DNA of 20,507 nucleotides. Origin: a virus. The notes beneath the pieces were generated by a model. That model was not told the origin of the DNA. It worked only from the letters and a program-made list of their open reading frames with translations, and did no database searches. The position numbers and the translations under genes are program-made. The stretch covers positions 1-20,507 of IMG/VR virus record IMGVR_UViG_3300020159_002017. One strand, written 5' to 3'. Positions 5,190 through 20,507 of the stretch are shown in pieces; within the stretch, counting starts at the first letter, position 1; every line of letters starts with the position of its first letter.

Positions 5190-6128
5190 TTATTTTATTG
5201 TTTGTTTTTTTATTTTTGAATCGATAACTGTAGCTACTAACATGTTCGGAGAAAATGTCATCGGCGATTTTAAAATAATTTCTTCTTCTCCTTCATATGC
5301 AATGTCAGATTCAATTCCCATCTCGTCTTCATAATCAAGTAAATCATTAATCATACTGTCTATGTCTAATAATACTTTTGAAGATTCGATATTGGTTCGA
5401 AATATTAATCCAGCTGCAACACCATCCATTTCCATTGTATTTTCTATATAAGCTTTAATTCCGTTAATACTTTTTGCACACGATATGCCAAATGAAGTAC
5501 TTGTAGATTTGATTGCCTTTGGAGAGCTTAAATAACTTTGCAATGATTTATTGTCTTTTAACGATACTAGTCGATAAACAGTACCTGAATAAGTTAAATA
5601 TTTTTTTGGTATTTTGTTACTTTTTAACAAAGCATCAAGTTTTTTATAAGCGTTGTATTGATTGATGTGCTGTGCTAATGCAGATTCAACTTGTTTACTG
5701 AAAGGTCTTGGTGTATCTGGTTCAGCATTTGTCGTACTTATATAACCTATAATATTTGCGAATTCTTTATTAGAAAGAAATGCTACTGGATGTATCATTA
5801 ACTTTCTTTTAATAGCTCCTTTTTTATCAAATGGATATTCAATAACAAAATTAGGGGATTCGTACTCGAGAGTTAATGAATACTTTTCTTTAGCTTTGTC
5901 AAATGCATTTTTATCAAATATACCTGATATCCAATAAGTATCATGAGGTCCTTTTGATTTTCTAGCATTTTTAATAAAAGATTTTACGATAGGCTCTAAT
6001 TTAGCATTTCTTGCTTTAGCTGTATTGTAAAAAGGCCCAATATTAATCTTTGCACTGTTTGCATCAGCTTCATTAACCATTTTTCTAACTTCTTCTCTGA
6101 TAAGAGCTCTAAATTGAGATGCTTTCAT
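5190..6128 (-). CDS. R-S-E class ADP-ribosyltransferase with a possible capsid-targeting N-terminus
   Basis: This is a likely mono-ADP-ribosyltransferase, moving ADP-ribose from NAD+ to host proteins. In T4, Alt and ModA modify RNA polymerase and other targets. The three R-S-E landmarks are in order: R186 in GTVYRLV; the S-T-S core in IKSTSTSFGI (about 207-214); and the E-x-E motif in YEGEEEIIL (E281, E283). The length (312) exceeds ModA (about 200) and is below Alt (682). The N-terminus, MKASQFRALIREEVRKMVNE followed by ADANS, is an amphipathic helix ending in VNE-A. It resembles T4 capsid-targeting sequences cut by the gp21 protease, and similar N-termini occur on three other proteins here. 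It may therefore be packaged and injected, but this is inference. Its start (6128) follows two AAACAACAAA repeats. Targets are unknown. Confidence 0.75.
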   Translation of the reverse strand: MKASQFRALIREEVRKMVNEADANSAKINIGPFYNTAKARNAKLEPIVKSFIKNARKSKGPHDTYWISGIFDKNAFDKAKEKYSLTLEYESPNFVIEYPFDKKGAIKRKLMIHPVAFLSNKEFANIIGYISTTNAEPDTPRPFSKQVESALAQHINQYNAYKKLDALLKSNKIPKKYLTYSGTVYRLVSLKDNKSLQSYLSSPKAIKSTSTSFGISCAKSINGIKAYIENTMEMDGVAAGLIFRTNIESSKVLLDIDSMINDLLDYEDEMGIESDIAYEGEEEIILKSPMTFSPNMLVATVIDSKIKKQTIK

Positions 6129-6148
6129 TTTTGTTGTTTATTTGTTGT

Positions 6149-6532
6149 TTATAAGTTGATGATTTGATATACTTTCGTATTAAGCACTTTCAAATCGTTA
6201 TTTGAAGTTACTAACAGACTATTTGCATACTTTGACCAATCAACGCTATAAGTAGAATCGACAATTCCGTTATTTTCTTTTTTAATCAATGCGTTTAAAG
6301 AGTTTATAGTATACATCGTATTAGTTTCTTTTTTACGATGTACTAACATTGCTCCTGGTAATTGTTTTTTGTGATTGCCTTTTTCAACATTAAAACTACA
6401 AATATACTCTTCAGACCCGATAATTGATAATACAAATACTCTTTTATAAACAACTTCATACGTTCTCGTGATCATACTTACCGTGTGATCGATATCCGGT
6501 TCTATTGTAAATAAACAAATTAATTGTACCAA
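6149..6532 (-). CDS. Small conserved-looking phage protein of unknown function
   Basis: I do not recognise a named family. The reading frame, 127 residues at most, is mixed hydrophilic with a beta-rich start (YEVVYKRVFVLSIIGSEEYI), a central LVHRKKETNTMYTINSLNAL, and a C-terminus like WSKYANSLLVTSNNDLKVL. It has no signal peptide or membrane segment. Its start is uncertain. An in-frame TAG lies just upstream of the TTG at 6532, so the choices are that TTG or the ATG at 6475 (residue 20, MITRTYEVVYKR). The ATG seems more natural and would give 108 residues. It lies between the polymerase and the ART, with its own promoter candidate at 6567-6598. Confidence 0.65.
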   Translation of the reverse strand: MVQLICLFTIEPDIDHTVSMITRTYEVVYKRVFVLSIIGSEEYICSFNVEKGNHKKQLPGAMLVHRKKETNTMYTINSLNALIKKENNGIVDSTYSVDWSKYANSLLVTSNNDLKVLNTKVYQIINL

Positions 6533-14222: not shown

Positions 14223-16709
14223 TTATCCAAACGTTCCATATCCACTATCTACTTTAGTATTGTATGTTTTTCTTAAAGTAGTTTGTTTTTCAATTTCATC
14301 CATAACTTTACCGTTGATGTTAATCTTAACTGGCTGGTCTATTTTTGCTATTAATTCTTTTAATAAAGATACAACTTCTTTGTTATTGGAATTTCCGATA
14401 CTACTACTTAATGGCTCTGTACTATTTGAAGAAGTGCTAGAACTACTTAAATTAGTTCCAGCTATTACAGTGTCATTTTCATCAAGTTTAAATTTGCCTT
14501 TTGGTCCTGATACTTCCAATCCTCCTGAAGGGTTAATCATAGCGTCATGAACTGCAGTTGCAGTTGCTTTATACTCTTTATCATAATATAAATCTTGAAT
14601 TGCAGCAGCTACAAACCCTCCTACACCGCCAAGTGTATACTTTGATAAATAAGTACTTATCCCAGTATCTGCAGCTGCAGTTGCTTTCTTTGCTAAATCT
14701 TCAGAAATAACACCTTTTTCTTTTTCGGCTTTTTCAGCCTGCTCCAAAGCCTGCTTTTCTTCTTGTGATTGCCCGTAACCAAACATCGCTCCTGTAAGAC
14801 CAACATCCGCAGCACGAGTACCAAAATCAGCTAATACTTTAATAAATGATTGAATACCTGGCATATTAGCTTTAATCGACTGTGAAAGTTGATCTTGAAT
14901 CATTGCCATATCTTGCTGAACTGTCGTTTTCCTTTCTGCATTAATTAACGATTGCGCTTCTTCTTCAGTTAACTTACCAGTATCTACTAATTGTTTTTTT
15001 GTTATCTTTCCAGTTTTAATTTTTTCAGCTAAATCTTCATCTCCTAGTTTATTACGAAGTAACATGTTTTGTATTTCATCTTCTCCTAATCCTAAAGATT
15101 CTGCTAATGCCTTTTTTTGTATTGGCATCATTTTATTAAACTCATCTAAGTTAATATTCTGACTAGATAAAACTTTATTAACTTCCTCAGCTACTTTTGC
15201 TTGATCTCCATATAAAGCAGCTTGACGAACTGCATTTAGATTCATATGCTTTCCTAACAGCACATTAGCTTTCATTTCATTTTCAATCGATGATTCAATA
15301 TCTAAAACATTTTCTGAAATTTTAGCTACTTGGTCAAATTCCAATCCAAAACGTCGAATTGTTTGAACTTGTTTAACTAATGCTTTGTCTGATTTTCCAT
15401 ATAATGCAAGATTTCTCTTATTAATTACACTGATATCTTGCATATTCTGTCTAAACTCAGCTACTAAATCTCCCTGCGTTAATTGTATACCTTGTTGTTC
15501 ATAAAATTCTTTAGTAGTATTTAATGCAGTAGTCTCAAATTCTGAAGCTTTATCTGCAGTTCCAGCAAATGAAGATCCTAATAAAGTTGCCGCAGATACT
15601 ATACCGCCTAATTCTTCATTAGAAAGTTGCATATTAAATTGCAACGCTTGCATTCGCGGCATTACGTCTTTTGCTAATACATGACTAACTCTACCAAAAT
15701 TCTTTGATAATAAATCTGAATATTCAACAATATTTTCAAACAGAACGTCTTGATGAGCTGCTGATTGTTCAATTTCTGCTGCTTCTTTTTTTGATACGTT
15801 TAAATTTTTTGCAATGTCTGTAATATGTTTATCAGCTTCCATTGCAGTATCATAAAATGCTTTGAAAGCTAGCACCAACGCACCAACTAATAATAAAAGA
15901 CCTCCTGTTGCAACTGTTAGTGTAGTTCCAAATCCTAACGCTGCTGTTTCGGCGCTAGCCATGCCAGTTGCAACTTCTCCAGTACCTGATGCTGCTGTTG
16001 GGCCGATGTTGCTTACTATATCAGTTATACTACTAGCGGCTTCTTCAACTCCACTTAATCCATTTATCTGATCGTCATATCCTTTTAACGCAGATTGAGC
16101 TGCGTTTCGTTGCTCAACTGCAGACTTTTTAAATGTATTGGTTAAAGCTCCTCCAAGTTTATTACTCAATTCTTCTTTAACATTATCTAACCCTAAAGAC
16201 TTTGATAGAAAATCTCCTACAATTGGAATATCTTTTATTTTATCGTCAATCTTATCAATAAATCCTAAAGATTGATCAATAGAATTTTTATATTTGTCTT
16301 GAAATTTATTTAACTCTTTTTGAGCAGCTAATAACTTTTTTCTATGTGGAAGTGCTTTAGCTTCTAAATCAGCTATTTCTTCAACCTTTTTAGCTGTTTT
16401 TTGAATCTCTTTAAAATTCTTTTCGCTAGTTAATAATTGACTTTTATCTGTTTGTAATGAAGATAATTGATCTTTTAAAATGTCACGCTGCAATCCTAAT
16501 CGCTTTAATTGAATACCGGATAGTTTTTTGCTAGCATCGAAAAGATCATTTTCAATGTCTAACAACCCTTTAGAAGCATCTGCGATTTCTTTTACAGTGT
16601 CAGCAATTTTCTTTTGAATTTTTTGTTGCTCATTAGCCGCTTCTGTCTGTACTTTACTAGCTTCTTTTGCCTTTGCGTTAATTTTATTTAACTCTTTATC
16701 TTCAGCCAT
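14223..16709 (-). CDS. Tail length tape-measure-like protein
   Basis: The 828-residue protein sits right after the chaperone-type genes, where tape measures are encoded. The first 160 residues are strongly helical and charged (coiled coil), with heptad-like Leu/Ile spacing and many Lys/Glu. A hydrophobic segment, TVATGGLLLLVGALVLAF (about 265-282), is a single membrane-spanning-like helix, a usual tape-measure feature. Further long helical stretches follow. A Ser/Asn-rich region (about 755-775) leads to VSLLKELIAKIDQPVKININ near the C-terminus. T4 gp29 has 590 residues. At the usual 1.5 A per residue, 828 residues would span about 120 nm if fully used. It starts 3 bases after the 138-residue gene's stop. 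The fold gives no family signature, so position and composition carry the call. Confidence 0.7.
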   Translation of the reverse strand: MAEDKELNKINAKAKEASKVQTEAANEQQKIQKKIADTVKEIADASKGLLDIENDLFDASKKLSGIQLKRLGLQRDILKDQLSSLQTDKSQLLTSEKNFKEIQKTAKKVEEIADLEAKALPHRKKLLAAQKELNKFQDKYKNSIDQSLGFIDKIDDKIKDIPIVGDFLSKSLGLDNVKEELSNKLGGALTNTFKKSAVEQRNAAQSALKGYDDQINGLSGVEEAASSITDIVSNIGPTAASGTGEVATGMASAETAALGFGTTLTVATGGLLLLVGALVLAFKAFYDTAMEADKHITDIAKNLNVSKKEAAEIEQSAAHQDVLFENIVEYSDLLSKNFGRVSHVLAKDVMPRMQALQFNMQLSNEELGGIVSAATLLGSSFAGTADKASEFETTALNTTKEFYEQQGIQLTQGDLVAEFRQNMQDISVINKRNLALYGKSDKALVKQVQTIRRFGLEFDQVAKISENVLDIESSIENEMKANVLLGKHMNLNAVRQAALYGDQAKVAEEVNKVLSSQNINLDEFNKMMPIQKKALAESLGLGEDEIQNMLLRNKLGDEDLAEKIKTGKITKKQLVDTGKLTEEEAQSLINAERKTTVQQDMAMIQDQLSQSIKANMPGIQSFIKVLADFGTRAADVGLTGAMFGYGQSQEEKQALEQAEKAEKEKGVISEDLAKKATAAADTGISTYLSKYTLGGVGGFVAAAIQDLYYDKEYKATATAVHDAMINPSGGLEVSGPKGKFKLDENDTVIAGTNLSSSSTSSNSTEPLSSSIGNSNNKEVVSLLKELIAKIDQPVKININGKVMDEIEKQTTLRKTYNTKVDSGYGTFG

Positions 16710-16712
16710 TTA

Positions 16713-17129
16713 TTAATATAGTTTATACTTCCTTAAAATGTCCTTGTGTTTTTGTTTGGTTTTTTGCATAATTTTATCCATGCTATCTCCCATTTTAACA
16801 TCAATTCCATCATTTTGAAGTCCTTTAATTAAAGACTCATACTCATCAATTTTTGTCTTAAGTCTTTTAGTTATTTGCTCAAGCGATTCTGATGATACTT
16901 TAATTTGTTGTACTAACTCTTTATATTCTGGAGAAGTTTTTATTGCTTCAGCTTTTTTACGAGCTTTTGGTTCTAAAAATAACGCCATGACAGAACCTAA
17001 AAGGCTTTCATGTAAATTTGCTTTCTTTGATAAAAAAGAAAATTCATCATTAATAGATTGTTCTATTAATTCTAACTTAACTGAAGCTACTTCTTCTTTG
17101 ATGATTTGTTTTATTTTAGATACTTTCAT
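16713..17129 (-). CDS. Small helical protein with a capsid-targeting-like N-terminus, unknown function
   Basis: The 138-residue protein is predicted mostly helical, very basic in its last third (KIMQKTKQKHKDILRKYKLY), and without cysteines. The N-terminus, MKVSKIKQIIKEEVASVKLE, is an amphipathic helix like that of the ART (MKASQFRALIREEVRKMVNE). A candidate protease site, LHE-S, lies at residues 39-42 (compare LHE-A in the 120-residue protein). The gene is flanked by a terminator and its own late-type promoter upstream, and by the tape measure 3 bases downstream. It could be an internal virion protein, or a tail assembly factor with a coincidental N-terminal helix. No known family is recognised. 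Confidence 0.7.
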   Translation of the reverse strand: MKVSKIKQIIKEEVASVKLELIEQSINDEFSFLSKKANLHESLLGSVMALFLEPKARKKAEAIKTSPEYKELVQQIKVSSESLEQITKRLKTKIDEYESLIKGLQNDGIDVKMGDSMDKIMQKTKQKHKDILRKYKLY

Positions 17130-17142
17130 GTAGTGCAGTATT

Positions 17143-17160
17143 TTATTTATAATAAATATC
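17143..17160 (-). promoter_or_regulatory. Late-type promoter candidate before the 138-residue gene
   Basis: The minus strand reads GATATTTATTATAAATAA, containing an exact TATAAATA as in T4 late promoters, 13 bases before the ATG. It follows the rho-independent terminator at 17189-17218, which fits restart of transcription. Near-identical elements occur at 18294-18311 and 19218-19235. Confidence 0.6.
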
Positions 17161-17188: not shown

Positions 17189-17218
17189 AAAAATAGGACC
17201 TATGATTTAGGTCCTATT
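17189..17218 (-). terminator. Rho-independent terminator after the gp26-like/short-ORF pair
   Basis: On the minus strand a 10-bp perfect stem, AATAGGACCT / AGGTCCTATT, with a 7-base loop (AAATCAT), runs into a TTTTT tract. The stem includes the last codons and the TAG stop of the upstream ORF (17200-17382), so terminator and C-terminus share sequence. Confidence 0.85.
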
Positions 17219-17382
17219 GATGGTCTAGCTATTTTAGGTTTGCTAGTCTTTTTTGTCTTTTTTTCCTGACTTTCTTTTTGTTTTATCATCGCATCTTCCA
17301 TTTTCTTATAATAGAATTTGCGTAGCCAAACTGGCATATCATATAACTCGGTCCAAGTAAATCCATGGCCATGATAAACCAT
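17200..17382 (-). CDS. Short tail-assembly protein; probably the frameshift extension of the gp26-like gene
   Basis: From the ATG at 17382 there are 60 residues (MVYHGHGFTWTELYDMPVWL onward), ending in a Lys/Ser/Pro-rich tail. The TWTELYDMPVWLRKFYYKKM pattern recalls short phage proteins encoded just after gp26-like genes. The frame is open further upstream, without a stop, back to 17445, and so overlaps the end of the gp26-like gene. A +1 (or -2) slip at the T7 run 17431-17437 would join them through GLSPKHKPIIHGQLFD to give a fusion of about 359 residues. The ATG has no A-rich or SD leader. In many phages the tail assembly chaperone is made as a short and a frameshifted long form, just upstream of the tape measure. 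Whether the ATG is also used is unknown. Confidence 0.7.
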   Translation of the reverse strand: MVYHGHGFTWTELYDMPVWLRKFYYKKMEDAMIKQKESQEKKTKKTSKPKIARPSIGPKS

Positions 17383-17416
17383 ATCAAATAATTGCCCATG
17401 AATTATAGGCTTATGT

Positions 17417-17445
17417 TTAGGACTTAGGCCAAAAAAAGTTGGTAT
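17417..17445 (-). other. Probable programmed +1 (or -2) ribosomal frameshift window
   Basis: On the minus strand the zero frame reads AAC TTT TTT TGG CCT AAG TCC TAA, while the +1 frame becomes open after a TAG at 17446-17448 and stays open to 17200. The overlap is only 29 bases and contains a T7 run (17431-17437). A P-site Phe tRNA on TTT can slip +1 to TTT and then read GGC, or slip -2 and read TTT GGC. No -1 frame extension is involved. Confidence 0.6.
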
Positions 17446-18280
17446 CTATATTAAACGACAACGCCTCCTTGTCGCCGCCGCACTCTGTGCAAGTAAAGTC
17501 AATTTCAAACTTAGTATCTGGACTTACAGATTTCATATATGTACGAAATGCTCTAGAATCTATTGCAAATAATTCATTATCAACAAAATGAGCGATAGCT
17601 TTTTTATCTGCGTTACCGTCTACTGAAACAATAAGATTTTTAAGACGAGTAGTTAATTCTCGATCGATACCATCTTTATTTGTTTTTCTTAAAGCTTCTA
17701 ATTCTTTAGAAACTTTTTTATCGTCTCCGGTTGATAATAGTCTGAAATGAAGAGTTCTTTTAGATTGAGGAAGTACATATTCAAATATACCTGGAGAAAC
17801 CATTGCAGTGTCTTCTGGAATATTAGATTCAGGCAATTGAGTTAAATCAACTTCAATTTTATTATCAGCTCCACACATAGGACATTCAATAGTAGACTCA
17901 TATGCCTTACCATAACCTAAAATACGTGCAGCAATCATAATTGCATTCTTATCACCAATAACTAAATCATTGAAATTAATAGGAGATACAATCATTGACT
18001 GCATTAGCTTTTCTAATACAATACCTTGTTTAATTAAATTCTGAGAAGTAAGAATATCTTCTTCTCGAGCTGTCATATACTTCATTTCAACCGTTCCACT
18101 TCGCAATAGAGAACTTTCAGGATATACTAATCCTTTAGACGGTAATGAAATAATTTCTGTTGGGAATCCAGAGTTTTTAACCTCATGGCGTTGCATGTTC
18201 TGAATTGCAAGATCTTTTACTTGCTCATCTGACATTTCAAAATTACCTTGCTTAGGGTAATTGTCATTAACTGTTGGCAT
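17417..18280 (-). CDS. Tail/baseplate assembly chaperone, T4 gp26-like, with two CxxC zinc knuckles
   Basis: The 287-residue protein has LPSKGLVYPESSLLRSG followed by VEMKYMTAREEDILTS and LIKQGIVLEKLMQSMI, a pattern found in gp26-type proteins of T4-like phages and in tail assembly chaperones. Two Cys pairs (CPMC, 133-136; CTEC, 264-267) are spaced to form a zinc ribbon. The last residues, TNFFWPKS, are encoded over a T7 run. The +1 frame through that run continues into the next short ORF, so this is likely the upstream partner of a programmed frameshift. It starts at ATG 18280, 13 bases after a late-type promoter element. I call it a chaperone from context and frameshift architecture; T4 gp26 itself is usually listed as a baseplate hub assembly protein. 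Confidence 0.75.
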   Translation of the reverse strand: MPTVNDNYPKQGNFEMSDEQVKDLAIQNMQRHEVKNSGFPTEIISLPSKGLVYPESSLLRSGTVEMKYMTAREEDILTSQNLIKQGIVLEKLMQSMIVSPINFNDLVIGDKNAIMIAARILGYGKAYESTIECPMCGADNKIEVDLTQLPESNIPEDTAMVSPGIFEYVLPQSKRTLHFRLLSTGDDKKVSKELEALRKTNKDGIDRELTTRLKNLIVSVDGNADKKAIAHFVDNELFAIDSRAFRTYMKSVSPDTKFEIDFTCTECGGDKEALSFNIDTNFFWPKS

Positions 18281-18293
18281 AACTAATAGTTTA

Positions 18294-18311
18294 TTATTTA
18301 TTATAAATATG
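18294..18311 (-). promoter_or_regulatory. Late-type promoter candidate before the gp26-like gene
   Basis: The minus strand reads CATATTTATAATAAATAA, 13 bases before the ATG, exactly the spacing of the copy at 17143-17160. It differs from that copy at the first base and the variable pair, so its core is AATAAATA, not TATAAATA. Confidence 0.5.
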
Positions 18312-19217: not shown

Positions 19218-19235
19218 TTATTTACTATAAATATC
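19218..19235 (-). promoter_or_regulatory. Late-type promoter candidate before the 120-residue gene
   Basis: The minus strand reads GATATTTATAGTAAATAA, 8 bases before the ATG and directly after the endonuclease stop. The core is AGTAAATA. Its close match to the 17143 and 18294 copies gives the call its weight. It would let the 120-residue gene be expressed independently of the inserted endonuclease. Confidence 0.5.
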
Positions 19236-20036
19236 TTATTTGCAAATTTCCATTAAATTTGCAATTACTTCAAATCGATTACATGTAATGTCTCGTTCCC
19301 AAAATCGCAGAAGTTGATAGCTTCTATCCGCAGCATGTTTCGTTTTCAATTTATCTAAACCTTTATTCTTTTTCTGCATGTTATTCAATTCAACATACTT
19401 GTCTGGATGTGCATGCCAATAATCTCCATCAACTTCTATCAGAGTATTTTTGCTAGGAATGTAAAAATCATAATTGAATCCTTCCACTTCATACTGATGT
19501 ACAAACTCAATTCCTAAACCTGTTAATATATCAGCAAATGTAAATTCCAATTTTGAAGGATTGCCTTTGAGAATTTCTTTTCTGTTGCGAGCAAGAGTTT
19601 CTAGCATTATTTTTCTATGCGCTTCAGACTTTGGCTTTCCAGTAAGAGCTTTGGAAATTTTTTCACAGCGTACAGGATCTTTGGCTATTCTACGTTTTTC
19701 TTCTAGCTCCTCTCCTTCGTAAATTTTACCTTTATTCCATTGCTCCAATTCTCCTGAAGCAAATCTTTCTTTTCTCGTTTCCAAAGACTTTTGCAATCCT
19801 TCTTTAGAATAAAATCCTTTTGATACTCTTGCTTTGTGACCTTGAAGATATTCTCCAAATTTACCTAATTGAAAATTAACTTCTTGTCCACAACCACATT
19901 TACATTTAGGAATCTCTGTAAGATTATACGATATCATGTATAATTCTATTCCTGATACATTATGCGCTCTCGCAGAATGCTTTGCTAACCCATTAAAAGA
20001 ACCGTATTCTTTTGTACAATAACTACATTTAAACAT
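19236..20036 (-). CDS. Free-standing Vsr-like (EDxHD/PD-(D/E)xK) homing endonuclease with zinc finger and NUMOD
   Basis: This 266-residue mobile DNA endonuclease is selfish and not needed by the virion. An N-terminal C2H2 finger, C4-x2-C7-x12-H20-x4-H25, is followed by a CKCGCG knuckle (45-50). A NUMOD3-like helical DNA-binding segment, KISKALTGKPKSEAHRKIML, lies at about 126-145. The C-terminal Vsr-like nuclease core has KLEFTFADIL (E164), EGFNYDFYIP (D190), LIEVDGDYWHAHPD (E201, D203, H208) and RFWERDI (about 245-251). This order resembles the Vsr-like homing endonuclease family with the EDxHD signature. It is inserted between the tail tube gene and the next structural genes. A hairpin abuts its ATG, and a remnant copy of the tail tube 3' end lies upstream. 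Target site unknown. Confidence 0.82.
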   Translation of the reverse strand: MFKCSYCTKEYGSFNGLAKHSARAHNVSGIELYMISYNLTEIPKCKCGCGQEVNFQLGKFGEYLQGHKARVSKGFYSKEGLQKSLETRKERFASGELEQWNKGKIYEGEELEEKRRIAKDPVRCEKISKALTGKPKSEAHRKIMLETLARNRKEILKGNPSKLEFTFADILTGLGIEFVHQYEVEGFNYDFYIPSKNTLIEVDGDYWHAHPDKYVELNNMQKKNKGLDKLKTKHAADRSYQLLRFWERDITCNRFEVIANLMEICK

Positions 20037-20112: not shown

Positions 20113-20127
20113 TGCGTAGTCATACTT
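20107..20127 (-). pseudogene. Remnant second copy of the tail tube gene 3' end (encodes KYDYAIL)
   Basis: Directly after the tail tube stop, the minus strand can be read AAG TAT GAC TAC GCA ATT TTA, encoding KYDYAIL. The true gene end (20135-20155) encodes the same seven residues with different codons: AAA TAT GAT TAT GCC ATA CTT. Only TAT is unchanged; the other six codons differ synonymously. An alternative DNA alignment, with an 8-base deletion, also matches CAATTTTAA. Either way the segment looks like a leftover allele end, as expected if an insertion of the endonuclease cassette brought in a new tail tube 3' end. Confidence 0.55.
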
Positions 20128-20507
20128 AAAATTGAAGTATGGCATAATCATATTTCAATGTCAATTGTATATTAATAGCATCCTCAGTCGACCAATCAAA
20201 GTCACCGAAATTAGCGTCTCCGATATAAGCTCCTTTTAAAGTCCATTCTTCTACTTTATCACCTACCGGACCTAGCGCGTTAAAAGTAATGTCTTTCTTA
20301 TAAAAGTCAGAATACCCATCACGACCTGTTACAGACTCGTGAGATAAACGAATCCATTCCATTACTGCTTGAGCAGCTGAAGGAACTACTGGATCGTAAA
20401 GAGTAATAGATACGTCATTCCAACGTCCTTTTCCTTTTAATTTTCTTTCAACGTTGATGTGATCTAATACTACATCGCCAAAGGTAATGCCTGGACGGTT
20501 AGATGCT
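20126..20507 (-). CDS. Tail tube protein, T4 gp19-like; C-terminal 127 residues, cut by window edge
   Basis: This is the repeating subunit of the inner tail tube. The frame is open from the window edge to TAA at 20126. Its sequence FGDVVLDHINVERKLKG, then YKKDITFNALGPVGDKVEEW, and IQLTLKYDYAILQF at the end, is typical of gp19 homologues in T4-like phages. A methionine at 20362 is internal, not the start. The gene's 5' part is outside the window. It would head a late transcript running into the chaperone, tape measure and baseplate genes. The sequence directly after its stop repeats its last residues. Confidence 0.9.
   Translation of the reverse strand, partial: ASNRPGITFGDVVLDHINVERKLKGKGRWNDVSITLYDPVVPSAAQAVMEWIRLSHESVTGRDGYSDFYKKDITFNALGPVGDKVEEWTLKGAYIGDANFGDFDWSTEDAINIQLTLKYDYAILQF

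Follow-up and report, generated by a model that had tools for sequence, protein, structure and literature searches.

The window analysed here is a stretch of 20,507 nucleotides from a virus (IMG/VR record IMGVR_UViG_3300020159_002017), in which the chaperone, tape measure and tail tube genes described below lie on the minus strand. Based on sequence homology to the families PF12322 (T4_baseplate) and phrog_150, a gp26-like gene (17417..18280; 287 aa) was identified as the putative short form of a tail assembly chaperone. An extension (17200..17445) lies in the +1 frame relative to it, and the long form produced by frameshifting would occupy 17200..18280. The ORF list contains an ORF of 138 aa (16713..17129) that separates the extension from the putative tape measure gene, and no convincing family match was found for it in Pfam or PHROG. 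The tape measure protein (14223..16709; 828 aa), two genes downstream of the chaperone, was tentatively assigned by its position and length; profile searches, including Pfam, found no family match for it. Upstream of the chaperone, the gene for a gp19-like tail tube protein (20126..20506; phrog_4542, E = 2.1e-20; PF06841, E = 3.1e-6) is cut by the end of the window. In phages immuto and SP-15 the order is clear, with the chaperone gene coming after that of the tail tube and before that of the tape measure; in immuto, a relative, the gene annotated as tape measure stands directly after the extension. A gene for a DUF559/Vsr-like nuclease with a zinc-finger-like start (19236-20036) is located between that of the tail tube protein and the chaperone region.

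The gp26-like frame ends at 17417, and the +1 frame, which is closed by a TAG at 17446-17448, is open from 17445 to its stop codon at 17200-17202, giving an overlap of 29 bases. Within it lies the site AAC TTT TTT TGG (17429..17440, as read in the zero frame), with the run TTTTTTT at 17431-17437. These positions agree with the original prediction, which had proposed that a programmed +1 (or -2) frameshift joins the gp26-like protein to the short downstream ORF, giving a pair of tail assembly chaperones. Translation with a single four-base step resulted in a fusion of exactly 359 aa, where about 359 residues had been estimated; the two CxxC pairs are retained in it, as had been noted, and are often missing in relatives. 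The window contains a single copy of the sequence CTTTTTTTGGCCT, and none of 100 shuffled versions had one, while TTTTTTTGG alone was unremarkable (2 found against 0.79 expected). Seven T residues followed by GG are therefore not rare by themselves, and conservation must carry the case.

A first set of 80 relatives was retrieved with the gp26-like protein, and later scans gave 276 loci with a gp26-like gene, a few contigs being duplicated. Extension homologs were present in 79 of the first 80, the contig of the remaining one (L050) ending 23 bases past the gp26 stop. Where both parts were found, the extension lay in the +1 frame in 254 of 259 loci (a few contigs counted twice), and the shift site is kept across these 254. 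The non-redundant set comprised 123 loci, of which 122 were linked and one (L129) had its two genes split by an insertion. For 50 codons past the shift site the +1 frame was free of stop codons in all 122 linked loci but not in L129, and each of the other two frames contained a stop within that distance in all 123. Codon-position variability indicated zero-frame coding upstream of the site and +1 coding downstream, the pattern continuing unchanged across the position of the window ATG. By these sequence comparisons, both dual coding and conservation of the shift site were evident, which supports the programmed frameshift originally proposed.

The same arrangement was also seen in the isolate genomes of immuto and Mel-JY01, and a plausible +1 arrangement, judged by eye, was found in SP-15, LIS04, GXN1 and RM378. 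The sole match in a bacterial genome was a 3.2-kb contig in a Sphingobacteriales MAG, which is too short to indicate a host. Homopolymers are prone to indel errors, and a sequencing error or pseudogene might be suspected at such a run; this explanation, of negligible probability, was refuted by the occurrence of the same frame relation in about 250 loci, the two isolates and variants without a long run among them.

Alternatively, the extension could be an ordinary gene in its own right, beginning at 17382 or at a non-standard codon and translated by coupling. An ATG does exist at 17380..17382, where an ORF caller would put the start of the short ORF. That it lacks a Shine-Dalgarno-like leader, as the original prediction pointed out, is true but makes a weak argument, since most genes of this phage also lack one; the stronger case against it is that it lies inside a conserved domain. 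In the first relatives with an extension, except L040, the extension starts in the overlap, upstream of the position of the window ATG, and the +1-frame protein is conserved there. Relatives mostly have I, L or V at the position aligned to this ATG, which together with the codon-position pattern suggests that 17382 begins the codon of an internal Met and that coding of the extension would start at the shift site. In about 15 loci the +1 frame is blocked by a stop one codon ahead of the shift site, and an ATG, GTG or TTG comes no earlier than codon 31-38, inside the conserved domain; with no usable start codon for the extension, frameshifting is required in these loci. The site and the overlap, but neither the downstream ATG nor any independent start, were conserved among relatives; this was the comparison by which the original prediction had asked to be checked.

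Four loci in which the two parts are unlinked provided natural controls. In L040 and L129 the genes are separated by an ORF for a GIY-YIG-like homing endonuclease (about 5711-6440 and about 2223-2870, respectively); the shift site has been lost in both and reads TTC TTC TGG. In L204 and L210 (about 2200-2450) there is no insertion, and the extension forms an ORF of its own that begins with an ATG, the site reading TTC TTG TAT or TTC CTT TGG. The slippery codons were thus lost in all four, while an aromatic-Pro-Asp protein motif was retained, indicating that the codons, and not only the residues, are held in the linked loci. L204 and L210 do provide instances of an extension in a separate ORF, but with shift codons conserved only where the parts are linked, and with many relatives lacking a start codon before mid-domain, a separate gene is very improbable for the window.

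The conserved forms of the site were TTT TTT TGG and TTT CTT TGG. Among the 122 non-redundant linked loci, the second codon was only UUU or CUU, except for a single CUA; where CUA occurs (L085, L217) the slip would have to take place on the first Phe codon. Phe at the second position was encoded by TTT in 101 of 101 cases, compared with 82% TTT (and 18% TTC) among Phe codons of the same genes, with a naive P of 2e-9, P values for codon bias here ignoring the relatedness of the loci; Leu was encoded by CTT in 20 of 21 cases against a background of 22% in the same genes. The following codon was nearly always TGG, and sometimes TTC or TAC. T-runs were of seven residues in most loci and of eight or nine in a few. 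The longest run was three or fewer in 19 loci and four or fewer in another five (24/122), with the arrangement the same.

A backward slip of two bases is known for phage Mu. At the present site it would carry the P-site tRNA back along the T-run into the same frame, with one extra residue in the product (NFFFGL as opposed to NFFGL). TTTTTTT, with TTT TTT present in 97 of the 122 loci, would allow full re-pairing, and TTT CTT TGG is compatible as well, as Leu-tRNA could re-pair on UUC by a G:U pair. It accords poorly with the loci reading TTC TTT TGG (L195, L197 and L200; 14 before removal of redundancy), in which Phe-tRNA would re-pair on UCU with a middle mismatch, or with the 24 loci in which the T-run is just three to four long, and it is considered improbable. 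Slippage of the polymerase on the T-run, by which some mRNAs would be one base shorter or two longer and be translated in the standard manner, is less probable again. Although the runs of seven to nine T residues would suit it, the arrangement persists at the loci with short runs, the constraint falls on the second codon (UUU/CUU) and not on run length, and the efficient bacterial form of such slippage is described on about nine T or A residues (PMC5009743). For a +1 slip it is enough that Phe-tRNA re-pairs on UUU (or UUC), or that Leu-tRNA does so on UUU, as it does in RF2. The broken T-runs therefore favour a ribosomal +1 event over both of these alternatives. Of the two directions originally left open, +1 is now much the more likely, the codon variants and broken runs disfavouring -2.

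The locus is best explained as encoding the putative tail assembly chaperone of a T4-like myovirus. Judged from sequence, a frameshift fusion is almost certainly made there, and +1 ribosomal slippage is very probably the means. Most ribosomes would terminate at 17417 and release the short form. In a minority, whose peptidyl-tRNA is paired to the second of the Phe codons (UUU at 17432-17434; Leu CUU in relatives), the tRNA would slip forward by one base onto UUU before UGG is decoded, skipping the U at 17431, so that the next codon read would be GGC (17428-17430). The slipped ribosomes would then continue in the +1 frame to produce the long form. By analogy to lambda gpG/gpGT, coating of the tape measure protein would be the task of the domain shared by both forms, and the extension would serve to recruit subunits of the tail tube.

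Predicted RNA structure downstream of the site gave no signal beyond the control (mean z of -0.96 at +19 to +79 compared with -0.80 in a control stretch further downstream), and no prfB-like Shine-Dalgarno stretch near the P site was evident in base frequencies. In E. coli, UUU_U is described as a weaker +1 site than CUU_U (PMC5009743); a further stimulator may therefore exist that escaped these searches.

The identity of the proteins was investigated using profile searches and structure prediction, the short form and the extension being modelled apart. The short form matched PF12322 (E = 5.5e-12; 46.3 bits against a gathering cut-off of 24.5) and phrog_150 (E = 3.4e-14). Its AlphaFold2 model had a mean pLDDT of 86.8, and in BFVD it resembled gp26-type baseplate hub proteins, including that of SP-15, down to E = 2e-19. 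No fold match with E < 0.001 and no sequence match was found in the PDB; possibly no structure has been solved for any member of PF12322. The extension was modelled as helical (mean pLDDT 73.6) and alone gave only marginal matches in PHROG and Pfam. Its profile matched gp51-type tails with P = 6.1e-8 and a score of 41.4 (reversed control, 9.1; column-shuffled controls, at most 13.8), a strong match obtained only with gp51 C-termini alone, pooled with cyanophage and large-phage tails; hhalign against full-length gp51 gave a weak match (P = 0.007). T4 gp26 (208 aa) and gp51 (249 aa) both belong to PF12322, and phrog_150 covers gp51 to position 280 and gp26 to 235, so that gp51 is a gp26-type domain plus a tail. 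Based on these profile comparisons, the extension is homologous to the C-terminal tail of T4 gp51. With gp26 and gp51 sharing one family and the extension matching the gp51 tail, the locus is a predicted one-locus equivalent of the T4 pair, which would yield by frameshifting the short and long chaperones that T4 makes from two divergent genes. In the RB43-like phages L100 (1201-2494) and L101 (1201-2495), gp51-like and gp26-like genes are arranged in tandem on the same strand, in contrast to the divergent T4 pair.

Most known tail-chaperone frameshifts go back one base (-1). In cyanophages S-PM2 and P-SSM2, a gp26-type frame likewise overlaps a gp51-tail frame (phrog_150 positions 4-234, then 227-281 in the other frame), but the shift is -1 at T_TTT_TTC; the same sequence was found in the same place in MIJ3, RaK2, Atu_ph07 and L103. 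In P-SSM2 (L111, 2187-2399) and S-PM2 (L112, 2154-2393) the family phrog_634 (baseplate hub assembly catalyst) has its match in the -1-frame tail that follows gp26, so that in cyanophages it probably represents the terminal part of a frameshift product rather than a gene of its own. Lambda gpG/gpGT is similar in having a short and a frameshifted long form adjoining the tape measure gene, but by a -1 shift (PMC5009743). According to the same review, tail chaperone frameshifts are -1, -2 or +1 depending on the phage, +1 is considered very likely in the archaeal myovirus HSTV-2, and the +1 site of RF2 (prfB) is CUU_U, rarely UUU_U (PMC5009743). The two shift codons followed by U are thus the same as in RF2, whereas sense UGG (sometimes UUC or UAC) stands where prfB has UGA. 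All chaperone solutions (+1, -1, two-gene and split-gene) might be orthologous, both slips pivoting on the same Phe-Phe codons; RF2 codons before a sense UGG might then make the output of long form dependent on the host supply of Trp-tRNA, a proposal we regard as doubtful.

The original prediction knew of no earlier report of this kind on gp26-type genes, and this has to be amended. The gp26 and gp51 proteins are reported as T4-like tail assembly chaperones (Vladimirov, Gautam and Davidson 2022, as cited in PMC10885494 and PMC12846349). Citing that work, the PRFect paper states that some T4-like phages have a short chaperone gene plus a longer fused copy (PMC10885494), and the Adele paper mentions that T4-like chaperone genes contain poly-T slippery sequences of the -1 type (PMC12846349). 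A search of openly available papers, which include few of the subscription journals, gave no broad +1 clade with UUU_U/CUU_U sites. Chaperone identity and the principle of frameshifting are thus already known, and what appears to be new is a +1 form that is widespread and uses RF2-like shift codons. While the function is ordinary, the direction and the amount of natural evidence are unusual, hundreds of related phages keeping a probable forward shift of one base. Many phage genomes whose annotation misses the extension, or lists it as a separate hypothetical gene, can be corrected, and the two-gene arrangement of T4 is tied to relatives making both forms by frameshifting. Taken together, the loci form an extensive natural data set: the direction of the programmed frameshift varies across them and the product is kept, making the switch between -1 and +1 by a phage a testable question.

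A near-palindromic sequence, ATTTATNNTAAATA, was found at 17144-17158, 18295-18309 and 19219-19233 of the window, ahead of the genes starting at 17129, 18280 and 19209, respectively. It includes a TATAAATA-like sequence, which we take to be reminiscent of T4 late promoters. Seven matches to ATTTATNNTAAATA were present in the window against 1.6 expected, none of them ahead of the short ORF.
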